The notes beneath the pieces were generated by a model that saw nothing but the letters and a program-made list of their open reading frames with translations, made no database searches and was not told where the DNA came from. A program made the translations under genes and the position numbers. Below, piece after piece: positions 10,263 to 14,183 of a DNA stretch of 64,000 nt; position 1 is the stretch's first letter, and each line of letters starts with the position of its first letter. The stretch comes from Leptotrichia wadei (GTDB taxonomy: Bacteria > Fusobacteriota > Fusobacteriia > Fusobacteriales > Leptotrichiaceae), in assembly GCF_007990545.2 (NCBI RefSeq), contig NZ_AP019829.2, positions 2,170,001 through 2,234,000 of the forward strand. The letters run 5' to 3'.

Positions 10263-10292
10263 ATTTGTATTGTAGTAAAAACTACAGTTCTC
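10263..10292 (-). promoter_or_regulatory. SD-hairpin-start element of pglX
   Basis: AGGAG at 10288-10292 is 25 nt from the ATG. Between them lies a perfect stem-loop, TGTAGT-TTTT-ACTACA, at 10269-10284. Folding it out leaves about 9 nt, an ideal spacing. This suggests a folded spacer that tunes pglX translation. Confidence 0.6.
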
Positions 10293-10320
10293 CTTTCTTT
10301 TATTAATATGTTAAATGAAC

Positions 10321-10545
10321 TTAGGTTAGCAGAATAGTTTTTTCTATTATTAAATCAATGCTAGTTTCTAAAATTTTCTTTAAAATATTTTGTATGAATT
10401 TACACATACATATCACCTCTATTTTATGAAAAAAATACTCAAAAATTTCTATTATTAAAATCAATAATAATACGAATAAAAATACTATATCATTGTCTGC
10501 TATCCCTAGCTCTGCTAGCCTAAATTCATTTTTTTTAACCCCCAC
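10321..10545 (-). CDS. possible small membrane peptide between brxC and pglX
   Basis: A 74-codon frame opening at a GTG, with one strongly hydrophobic segment (IVFLFVLLLILIIEIFEYFF). A shorter start at an ATG near 10407, preceded by AGAGGTGATAT, would give 28 residues, MCKFIQNILKKILETSIDLI and eight more. No family was recognised. Translation is plausible but unproven, and the region may simply be a 5' leader of pglX. Confidence 0.3.
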   Translation of the reverse strand: MGVKKNEFRLAELGIADNDIVFLFVLLLILIIEIFEYFFHKIEVICMCKFIQNILKKILETSIDLIIEKTILLT

Positions 10546-10562
10546 CTTTTACAATTTATTCT

Positions 10563-13500
10563 CTAAAATTCAACTTGCACTATCTCACTATCTTCTAATT
10601 CTTCTTCCAATCTTTTTTTCAATTTATCCAAATACTCTTTTATATCTTCTGAATTTCGTATTTCCCAAACTCTATCTTTATTAATTTCTGAAATTCCAAT
10701 TCTTTTTGGTTTTTTTGCTTTTATTTCTTCTATATTTTCAGAAATCTCATTTGCTTTTTCTTTTTCTTCTAATATTTTTTCTTCTTTCTCAAAATTATTC
10801 AATAATTTATTTTTCAAGCTGATTGCTTCATTTTTATATGATTCAATATCTTTTATATTTTCACTTTTTTCAACTTTTTCTAAAATTTCACTAAATTGAT
10901 TATTAATTTTTTTTATATATTGTTCTTTTAATTCAATATTTTCTGCATATTCTACTCTTTTCAAAGCAATTTCTTTTGTTTCATTTATACTATCAGTTAT
11001 AGGCTTTCTTTTTTCATCCAAGATTTTATTGTATTTTTCATTAAATCTTCTATTTAATTCATTCAGATCTTTAATTCTGTTATATGGGTTATTATCATTT
11101 AGTATATTTTTTATATTCTTTGATATTTTTTCCAATTCATCATCTGAAAAATAATTTTTTGAATTAGTATACTTTTTATATAATTTAGTAGCTTCATCCC
11201 AAATATCTTTTTGATCTCCTTCAAAAAATTTCTCAATTGGTTCAAAATCTTCAGAAAAATCATAATAGTCATCTTCATGTCCAGAAATTTCATTGAATAT
11301 TTCTCTAGCATCCTTTAATCCAAGTACTTTTCTAAAAAGTTTTTTCCCATTTGATAAAATTTCTTTCCCAGGATAATCTTTATTTTGACATTCTTTCTCA
11401 AAACTTTCTATTTTATTTATTTTTTCTGCCGATAATTCTTTAAACTCTTGGATCATCTTATCTGTATCGCTTATATCTAAAGTAACATCAAATAATTCTT
11501 TTGCAACATAATTCATTATTTTTACACTTCTATCATCAATTTTTTCCTTTATTCCCAGATAAATTCTTTCTGAATTATCTTTTTTTATAATACTATTAAT
11601 AATATTTTCAGTAGTTTCATTTAATAATGTTAAACTAATCCTATTTTTTATAAGTTCAATTTTTCCATTCTTAAACGCTCTTGCAATAATCCATTCAATA
11701 TCCTTTTCATTCCAACCATAAGGCGCTTTTGAAAACTTATCTTTTATTTCTTTTAAAGTTATTTTTAAATTTTTTTCTTTTATCATACGTACATGATTCA
11801 CTATTTCACTTATCGCATTTTCATTATATTTTATACTTTCAACAGCAGTTAAAGTATTCCCTTTTTCCACAAAGATTTCCCTAATATCATCTTCACTCAT
11901 AGGCTTTGTTATGTATTCTAATTTATGATATACATTATTCACTAATTTTTCCAATGCTTCATTGATTTTACTTTCATACTCTTTCGCATTAAGATTAAGT
12001 TTATTTCCACCTACATAATATTCTGCATTTTTAAGAACTTCTTTCAACAAACGATTTGAACGCTCTATATATTCTCTACGTTCAATAGTTTTATTCTCTT
12101 TAATCGAATTTCCTTTAGGCAATCCTTCTAATTCTCCCGATTTTAAAAATTTTTCTATTTTTATATCCATTTCTATTTCATTAATATACGAATTATTCTC
12201 ACCTAAATCAATAAATACAGAATTTTCTTGAGAACTTTTCATTAAAAGCAAACTTTGATTTCCACTGTAATCTGAATTTGAAGTTACTATATTTACTGAA
12301 ATGTCATGAGTAATATTTTCTTTTTGAAAATCATCAACTATTTTATTAAAAGGAAAAATATAATTTCCAAGTTTAGGATACTGATATTTCTTTTCTTTGT
12401 AAAAAACTTCAAATACTTTTTCAGATATTCTTTTAGCTATTTCACTTGTATCTACGTCAATTTTATCGATAATCTTTTCAACTTCCTGTTCTTCATTTGT
12501 TAAAAAAATATAGACATCCCCAGATTTTTGAACAAGTGTCTGTTTTATCAAAATATCCAATGCTTCTTTAACTTTTTCTTTTAAAGAGATTCTATCTTCA
12601 TCAATATTTTCAACCATCAATGTTGTAATATTTTCCAAAGTCCCTTTTATTTCTTTAACATACTTAATCATAAATAACACTTTAAGAACATTCACATTAA
12701 AACAGTTTTCTTCTTTATCTGGATTAATATAACTATTTTCCATAGCTCTGGTAATAACTATAGAATGTGAATGATCTAAGAAACTCTGCAATCCATCATA
12801 AAATTTATCAAAAGGAATTAGTATTCCAACTTTACTATCTTTATACTTTTCTGCACTTTCTTTAAACATTGCAAGCATTGAACGTTCCCCTTCAGATAAA
12901 TGTTTTCCACTTGAGCTATGTTCCCTAACAGATGTTAAAACATGAGAAAGAATTTGAAATTGATATGGAATAAATGGATAAACTTCTTGAAAATCTTTTT
13001 TATTTTCGTATATTTTTTTTTCTATCCCATCATCAAATATAATTAAATTTCTAACCACTGATTCTTTTTCATTGTATTTTAATGACAATTCCCTATTTGC
13101 ATGCTCATTTTTATCTAAAATTCTCTTCTTAATAACTTCTGATACGTCTGTTGAAGTTAAATTAATTCTTGTTTTAAATCTTCCTTGTATTTTAGAAAAA
13201 TCATTTCCTTTTACTTTTGTAATAGAATCTATCGCTTGTTGAGAAGTTACAACTACCCATGCTTTTCCTTTACATTGTACTCCTAAATCTTCTGTTACAG
13301 TTTGTAAATTCAACATTAAATCTGTATTTTCTCCAATATATTGTCCTACTTCATCAACACAAAATACAACATGATGATTATTTCCTTTTGATTTAATGTA
13401 TTTATTTACCATTTTTGCAAAATCTTCTATTGAAATAGAATAATCTTTTTTTGAAATTTCTAACCAATCTTTAATTCCGGATTCACTCATAAATCCTATT

Positions 13501-14141
13501 TCTTCTATTGTTTGCGCAACTTTAGTTCTTATAAAATTAAATTTATGTCTTTCTTCGGTCCATACTTTTCCTGTTATCTCTTGAAATTTTCCTTTAAATT
13601 CTTCATATTTATTATTTTCTCTTAATTCTCTTTCTAAATCTGCCAAATGTGGAATTGAAGAAAATCCTTGCATTTCATTAAATACCTTCAAGAATACTTT
13701 TAGAATATCATCTTTCCCCTTATTTCCTGTACTATCACTTTTAGAATCAATATTAAACAATATAGAATCAGTTGAAGTCTGACACGCTATTTTCATATCT
13801 GCAATAACCATTTCATCTTTTATTTTATTATCTTCCAAAAAATAATCTATTGCCTTTTTCCCATTTATTTCTTTATTTGAAAGTAAATATGATAATATTT
13901 TTAATAAATGTGATTTCCCACTTCCAAAAAAACCACTTATCCAAACTCCCATATCATCTGTATTTCCATTAATTCCTTTACTATATGCTGAAAAAAAATC
14001 TCTAAAGTGTTTCTGTAATTCATTCGTTACAACATACTCTTCCAATTCTTGCTTCATATTTTCTTCTTCTTTTTGTCCTACTTTTATTACCCCTTTAATA
14101 TCTCTGTCAATAGGTTTTCTAAACATATCTTTTAATTTCAT
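10563..14141 (-). CDS. brxC: BREX ATPase BrxC
   Basis: 1192-residue BrxC (PglY-like), the large P-loop ATPase of BREX. Walker A GFFGSGKSH lies at residues 70-78 and the Walker B-like VVFCVDEVGQ near 255. The second half is charged and partly coiled-coil. The N-terminus MKLKDMFRKPIDRDIKGVI is characteristic of the family, which fixes the ATG at 14141 despite a Shine-Dalgarno 37 nt away. The gap contains a perfect hairpin. It lies between brxB (93 nt upstream) and pglX in the canonical type I order. Confidence 0.94.
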   Translation of the reverse strand: MKLKDMFRKPIDRDIKGVIKVGQKEEENMKQELEEYVVTNELQKHFRDFFSAYSKGINGNTDDMGVWISGFFGSGKSHLLKILSYLLSNKEINGKKAIDYFLEDNKIKDEMVIADMKIACQTSTDSILFNIDSKSDSTGNKGKDDILKVFLKVFNEMQGFSSIPHLADLERELRENNKYEEFKGKFQEITGKVWTEERHKFNFIRTKVAQTIEEIGFMSESGIKDWLEISKKDYSISIEDFAKMVNKYIKSKGNNHHVVFCVDEVGQYIGENTDLMLNLQTVTEDLGVQCKGKAWVVVTSQQAIDSITKVKGNDFSKIQGRFKTRINLTSTDVSEVIKKRILDKNEHANRELSLKYNEKESVVRNLIIFDDGIEKKIYENKKDFQEVYPFIPYQFQILSHVLTSVREHSSSGKHLSEGERSMLAMFKESAEKYKDSKVGILIPFDKFYDGLQSFLDHSHSIVITRAMENSYINPDKEENCFNVNVLKVLFMIKYVKEIKGTLENITTLMVENIDEDRISLKEKVKEALDILIKQTLVQKSGDVYIFLTNEEQEVEKIIDKIDVDTSEIAKRISEKVFEVFYKEKKYQYPKLGNYIFPFNKIVDDFQKENITHDISVNIVTSNSDYSGNQSLLLMKSSQENSVFIDLGENNSYINEIEMDIKIEKFLKSGELEGLPKGNSIKENKTIERREYIERSNRLLKEVLKNAEYYVGGNKLNLNAKEYESKINEALEKLVNNVYHKLEYITKPMSEDDIREIFVEKGNTLTAVESIKYNENAISEIVNHVRMIKEKNLKITLKEIKDKFSKAPYGWNEKDIEWIIARAFKNGKIELIKNRISLTLLNETTENIINSIIKKDNSERIYLGIKEKIDDRSVKIMNYVAKELFDVTLDISDTDKMIQEFKELSAEKINKIESFEKECQNKDYPGKEILSNGKKLFRKVLGLKDAREIFNEISGHEDDYYDFSEDFEPIEKFFEGDQKDIWDEATKLYKKYTNSKNYFSDDELEKISKNIKNILNDNNPYNRIKDLNELNRRFNEKYNKILDEKRKPITDSINETKEIALKRVEYAENIELKEQYIKKINNQFSEILEKVEKSENIKDIESYKNEAISLKNKLLNNFEKEEKILEEKEKANEISENIEEIKAKKPKRIGISEINKDRVWEIRNSEDIKEYLDKLKKRLEEELEDSEIVQVEF

Positions 14142-14183
14142 AAATTTATTTGCATGATTTTATGATTAAAATCACACTCTCCT
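14142..14183 (-). promoter_or_regulatory. SD-hairpin-start element of brxC
   Basis: AGGAG at 14179-14183 is 37 nt from the ATG. A perfect 8 bp stem, TGATTTTA/TAAAATCA with a 4 nt loop, lies at 14155-14174. It can extend by three more pairs (one G-C, two G-U). Folding out the 11 bp form leaves about 11 nt of spacing. Confidence 0.6.

Follow-up and report, generated by a model that had tools for sequence, protein, structure and literature searches.

Hairpins between Shine-Dalgarno and start codon in Leptotrichia: candidate split ribosome binding sites from BREX genes to ftsZ

The brxC and pglX leaders of the BREX operon

Here, we focus on two genes of Leptotrichia wadei whose Shine-Dalgarno (SD) sequences lie too far from their start codons, and on the hairpins that occupy the gap. 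The window, meaning the whole 64,000-nucleotide stretch that was analysed (G000:C1:2170001-2234000 of a 2.34 Mb genome), holds a complete type I BREX operon on the minus strand, with all six genes (brxA, brxB, brxC, pglX, pglZ and brxL) matched by PADLOC profiles. The two genes in question encode the BREX ATPase BrxC (10563-14141, start ATG at 14141-14139; PADLOC BrxC, 1356 bits) and the BREX methyltransferase PglX (6543-10262, start ATG at 10262-10260; PADLOC PglX, 1472 bits). An earlier note on this DNA had described a hairpin between AGGAG and the start codon of each gene, and both hairpins are indeed there, on the minus strand. Its premise that the start codons are fixed by the N-termini of the families also holds: residue 1 of each protein aligns with residue 1 of the PADLOC profile, the alignment with relatives likewise begins at residue 1, and upstream of either gene there is no in-frame ATG, GTG or TTG before a stop.

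Both leaders carry the same extended SD sequence, GAAAGGAG, which is complementary to the 16S 3' end CTCCTTTC. In brxC it is read on the minus strand at 14179-14186, with 37 nt between it and the ATG. The spacer hairpin in this gap (14152-14177, minus strand), TGATTTTA-ATCA-TAAAATCA, has a perfect core of 8 bp (14174-14167 with 14162-14155) and reaches 11 bp via one G-C and two G-U pairs; folding out the 11-bp stem leaves 1+10 = 11 nt unpaired. The extended SD of pglX lies at 10290-10297 on the same strand, 27 nt from the ATG, and the hairpin TGTAGT-TTTT-ACTACA (10271-10286, minus strand; 6 bp with a 4-nt loop) leaves 3+8 = 11 nt unpaired after folding out. The distances given earlier are therefore correct for brxC (37 nt, and 11 nt after folding out) and need correction for pglX, for which 25 and 9 nt had been stated.

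How far these distances fall outside the ordinary can be seen from 220 normally spaced AGGAG genes in a sample of the same genome, in which SD and start codon are 2-15 nt apart, mostly 5-12 nt. The hairpin genes described in this report, at 27-64 nt, lie beyond that range. When the gaps were shuffled (gap shuffles preserve base composition only), none of 200 shuffles matched the real folding energy for either brxC or pglX in one run, and 0 and 1 of 200 did so in a second. In hairpin leaders the SD and the AUG are both outside the stem, and folding models of most leaders leave them mostly unpaired.

Hairpin leaders across the genome

The sample surveyed for further cases comprised 844 kb of the L. 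wadei genome, including the window, with 664 open reading frames (ORFs) of at least 100 codons found by simple ORF calling. Candidates were genes without a normally placed SD but with AGGAG 18-75 nt before the ATG, and a gap passed the stem test if a stem of 6 bp or more spanned it. Such a distant SD was found in 26 genes, and a spanning stem in 12 of them by the strict test; in shuffled gaps the figure was 2.7 on average and 6 at most (200 shuffles). A thirteenth gene, a response regulator, has an interrupted stem that is backed by covariation, which brings the count to 13 of 26. A looser count, which took in the hairpins behind every upstream AGGAG (43 real vs 34 shuffled), was swamped by misassigned starts and was replaced by this one, which drops genes with a normal start.

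The extended SD is closely linked to the hairpin, being present in 10 of the 13 hairpin genes but in only 11 of 214 normal genes (Fisher P = 1e-9). Moreover, when genes were chosen by a distant GAAAGGAG alone, 10 of 11 passed the stem test, compared with 2.1 on average and 6 at most after shuffling; the sole gene to fail is the response regulator with its interrupted stem, and one of the ten that passed (L016:5915-7021) is marginal and fails a stricter stem test. Genes chosen likewise in L. hongkongensis (G007) passed in 3 of 3 cases (shuffled mean 0.8, maximum 2). With control pentamers in place of AGGAG, each set of 3-30 candidates gave 0-6 spanning stems. In samples of two further families, spanning stems were found in 1 of 6 (G034) and 5 of 15 (G041) candidates; the G041 cases look like misassigned starts within coding sequence, and GAAAGGAG is used by none of them.

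In addition to brxC and pglX, the L. wadei set consists of ftsZ, adk, pheT, the response regulator and genes for a pyridine-nucleotide flavoprotein, an ABC permease, a glycosyltransferase, a methyltransferase and Kdo-transferase-like, RlpA-like and FadA-like proteins, while L. hongkongensis adds a PLP decarboxylase, PTS EIIA and an N-6 DNA methylase. The hairpin genes are functionally unrelated and most are housekeeping genes; a regulon of defence genes is ruled out, since this is what most of the other members are. With 13 of 664 ORFs, hairpin-split start sites perhaps make up 1.5-2% of Leptotrichia genes.

About half of the L. wadei leaders have an ATG or GTG only 2-3 nt past the AGGAG, within the 5' arm of the stem (brxC leader, 14142-14178; L027, L038, L016, L017). 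By a script count, a start-like codon at offset 3 occurs in 5 of 12 hairpin genes vs 6 of 150 normal genes, an excess that looks real. Ribosomes might start just past the SD, read through the hairpin for a few codons and then begin anew at the true start, and the overlap of the mini-ORF stop with the true start in G007 brxC and in the FadA-like gene would suit such a coupling. However, a start codon near the SD is lacking in five of the 12 leaders (ftsZ, adk, pglX of L. wadei, rlpA and the methyltransferase), and the 3-nt spacing that is usual where a proximal start exists is found in 1 of 220 normal genes. The length and frame of the mini-ORF also vary between orthologs (CAG to TAG in brxC; the ABC permease), whereas the stems stay. 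Mini-ORF coupling is an unlikely reading, and as a general explanation it is ruled out by the five leaders without a nearby start and by an ORF that is not conserved.

Conservation among orthologs

The strongest evidence for a hairpin-spacer design comes from the comparison of orthologs in 13 Leptotrichia genomes, the relatives being represented by one genome per species. The ftsZ gene of the window (59701-60816, minus strand; NCBIfam TIGR00065, 387 bits vs a cut-off of 295) is preceded by a leader (60817-60877, minus strand) that reads GAAAGGAG, 2 nt, GCTACTT, a 28-nt loop, AAGTAGC, 9 nt and ATG. The same succession of AGGAG, 2 nt, GCTACTT...AAGTAGC, 9 nt and ATG is found in 13 of 13 genomes with two G-U variants, so that 100% of the alignment cells of the stem are paired across the 13 species, and the sequence of the stem is nearly invariant. 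The loop varies between 16 and 28 nt and is hypervariable in sequence. The gap between SD and ATG accordingly ranges from 41 to 53 nt, yet the unpaired distance is constant at 9-11 nt, and over ftsZ and adk orthologs together it is 9-12 nt. The stem of the ABC permease is also present in all 13 genomes. For adk, the response regulator and the flavoprotein it is found in an identical set of 10 of the 13; G004, G006 and G012 are without it at all three genes and have ordinary short spacing at most of these sites.

Changes on both sides of the stem were found in two genes. Three compensated pairs are present in adk, a level reached by 2 shuffles out of 500. G017, a member of another genus that has a 12-bp hairpin of different sequence at the same site, contributes two of these double changes. 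The response regulator has five compensated pairs, several of them from one species (G001), and its covariation score was matched in 0 of 500 shuffles. With five genes pooled, the sense strand shows 15 G-U states and 4 A-C states (P = 0.01), an excess of G-U that is expected for RNA and not for a palindrome or dyad in DNA.

Chance inverted repeats in AT-rich leaders, or start codons that were assigned wrongly, might produce a similar picture in a single gene; at 30% G+C it is not unusual for a short gap to contain a 6-bp stem, and pglX alone is weak in this regard. Such an origin is nevertheless contradicted by the excess over shuffles, the link to GAAAGGAG, the compensatory changes and the stem in all 13 ftsZ leaders, and alignment to the family or comparison with orthologs fixes the start codons of ftsZ, adk, BrxC and PglX. 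We regard it as extremely improbable.

Conserved structures near start codons are classic control points, and the almost invariant stem sequence of ftsZ across 13 species would fit a regulatory element. The hairpins could then be switches that are bound by a protein or a small RNA or that sense temperature, and the earlier note had indeed suggested temperature- or factor-dependent control. Against this, neither stems nor loops have a common sequence between genes, no factor site is apparent, and the ftsZ loops are hypervariable even among orthologs; the genes have no common function, and SD and AUG lie outside the stem. At the gathering score, no Rfam family matched at the hairpin leaders. As for temperature, in the folding model of the L. 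wadei brxC and pglX leaders the stems stay formed from 30 to 48 C, with a predicted occupancy no lower at 48 than at 30 C, and the SD and AUG are mostly open rather than sequestered; an RNA thermometer is rejected as a general explanation. Temperature or factor control has no support, and a regulatory switch of any of these kinds seems unlikely to us.

We instead propose, with good confidence, that these leaders are split (accommodated) ribosome binding sites of the kind described for phage T4 genes 25 and 38, and that they form a recurrent class in bacterial core genes. Several points weigh against this proposal. The changes in ftsZ, the ABC permease and the flavoprotein are one-sided, which makes the shuffle test uninformative for these genes; their pairing rests on constancy and on G-U changes, not on double changes. 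The 400-kb sample of G001 has no GAAAGGAG member, though G001 orthologs of several members carry the arrangement. Moreover, split sites leave unexplained the ATG or GTG found 2-3 nt past AGGAG in brxC, the flavoprotein, the ABC permease, pheT, the glycosyltransferase and the FadA-like gene. The remaining points come from BREX itself, which is shared with three further Leptotrichia (G005, G007 and G008; BrxC identity 71-73%). A distant AGGAG with a hairpin in the gap precedes brxC in all four genomes, but the hairpin of the other three (GGAGCT...AGCTTC), although at the same site, is unrelated in sequence to that of L. wadei, and in the one of these three genomes that was folded it is only ~60% formed in the model. 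The pglX hairpin is present in only two of the four. In G008 the core stem is unchanged, the loop has 10 nt and further base pairs are added, while G007 and G005 have ordinary spacing.

Taken alone, then, BREX provides evidence for a split-site design that is suggestive and patchy. The view of the earlier note that the hairpins restore normal spacing gains from the conservation, compensatory change and geometry seen in orthologs of other genes, whereas its idea of a coordinated control of the BREX genes is not supported: the same layout is found at ftsZ, adk, pheT and other housekeeping genes, and pglX dispenses with it in half of the BREX genomes. The hairpin-split layout looks like a general start-site design and not like a special control of phage defence.

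The rest of the operon, also on the minus strand and assigned by PADLOC profiles, consists of brxA (14813-15415), brxB (14235-14813), pglZ (2316-4853) and brxL (176-2299). The interval between brxC and pglX contains a block of ~210 bp (10313-10530) whose ends are inverted relative to each other (GAATTTAGGCTAGCAGA / TCTGCTAACCTAAGTTC) and which includes a short hydrophobic-rich ORF. It is found at the same site in G008 (77% DNA identity), is absent from G007, and could be a small mobile element or encode a membrane peptide. The interval between pglX and pglZ (5643-6427) holds a gene for an antitoxin of the RelB family (PF04221, 5643-5927) and a 133-aa ORF without assignment (6026-6427), a possible toxin-antitoxin pair within the BREX operon. 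A G-rich motif, GGTGGGGGTTAAA or near-identical, follows the stop codons of brxB and brxC in Leptotrichia BREX operons (~10542 and 14222 in the window, minus strand). The centre of PglX (residues ~218-891) is 41% identical between G007 (G007:C1:2120493-2124275) and L. wadei, compared with 73-81% at the ends, which gives the impression of a swapped specificity part. Outside the operon, 26024-26372 matches a group I intron (Rfam RF00028, 52.2 bits; gathering score 50) and adjoins an IS605/TnpB-type gene (24603-25859).

A candidate mechanism and its known counterparts

In a split site of this kind, the 30S subunit would pair the tail of its 16S RNA with the extended SD GAAAGGAG, and the hairpin directly behind it would remain folded and project out of the mRNA path. 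The start codon, physically 27-64 nt off, would then be presented at an unpaired distance of ~9-15 nt, which is near normal spacing. Loop sequence and length would be irrelevant, and the stem would be kept by selection because its opening would put the SD out of reach; the extended SD might meet a need for tighter 16S pairing. It is from what was directly observed, namely the sequences, their geometry, the excess over shuffles, the conservation and the compensatory changes, that we infer a hairpin that is folded during initiation, a ribosome that reads across it, and translation that is raised as a result.

On a wider scale, we think it likely that Leptotrichia and at least one neighbouring genus possess a genome-wide second class of start sites, kept by selection in essential genes (ftsZ, adk, pheT), in which the extended GAAAGGAG is followed by a hairpin that folds out and is free in sequence and in loop length, with the AUG 8-12 nt past it. 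Initiation across the folded spacer would be routine for the 30S subunit or for a lineage-specific factor. Such initiation is known from single phage genes; if it forms a conserved bacterial class that includes ftsZ, it would be a normal part of cellular translation. It would also provide natural covarying sequences for the study of how the 30S subunit holds a hairpin between the SD and the P site, and would matter for gene finding, where spacing models misjudge such starts, and for the expression of Leptotrichia genes in other hosts. The case further cautions against taking one hairpin in a defence operon as defence-specific control.

Searches of open-access papers turned up no report of hairpin-split start sites, either for Leptotrichia or as a class that spans a bacterial genome, and the comparison is with individual systems. 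In RNA thermometers and other SD-sequestering hairpins, the SD or the AUG is hidden inside the stem. They share with the Leptotrichia leaders a hairpin in the initiation region, but in the latter both SD and AUG lie outside the stem. In the split ribosome binding site of E. coli thrS, a folded mRNA hairpin is accommodated by the ribosome unopened (PMC3936740). The same accommodation of a folded hairpin is proposed here for Leptotrichia. The thrS hairpin differs, however, in its place, as it lies between the SD region and an upstream single-stranded region and not between SD and AUG.

A closer likeness is found in two genes of phage T4, 25 and 38, whose ribosome binding sites are split by a structure that lies between SD and AUG (Nivinskas 1999; Malys and Nivinskas 2009; reviewed in PMC3014915). 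According to this review, the effective distance falls from 27 to 11 nt in gene 25 and from 22 to 5 nt in gene 38, destabilising the hairpin was shown experimentally to lower translation, and the split sites are present in close relatives and absent from distant ones (PMC3014915). As far as this account goes, the T4 genes and the Leptotrichia leaders have in common an SD that is too distant, a hairpin in between and an effective distance that is restored; the values of gene 25 (27 and 11 nt) are even those of pglX. While the T4 cases described there are single phage genes that were tested by experiment, those of Leptotrichia are many unrelated bacterial genes, essential ones included, and are predicted from sequence. 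Compared with the T4 sites as described, the Leptotrichia leaders also stand apart through their unrelated stem sequences, loops of up to ~28 nt, a common extended SD and conservation throughout the genus.

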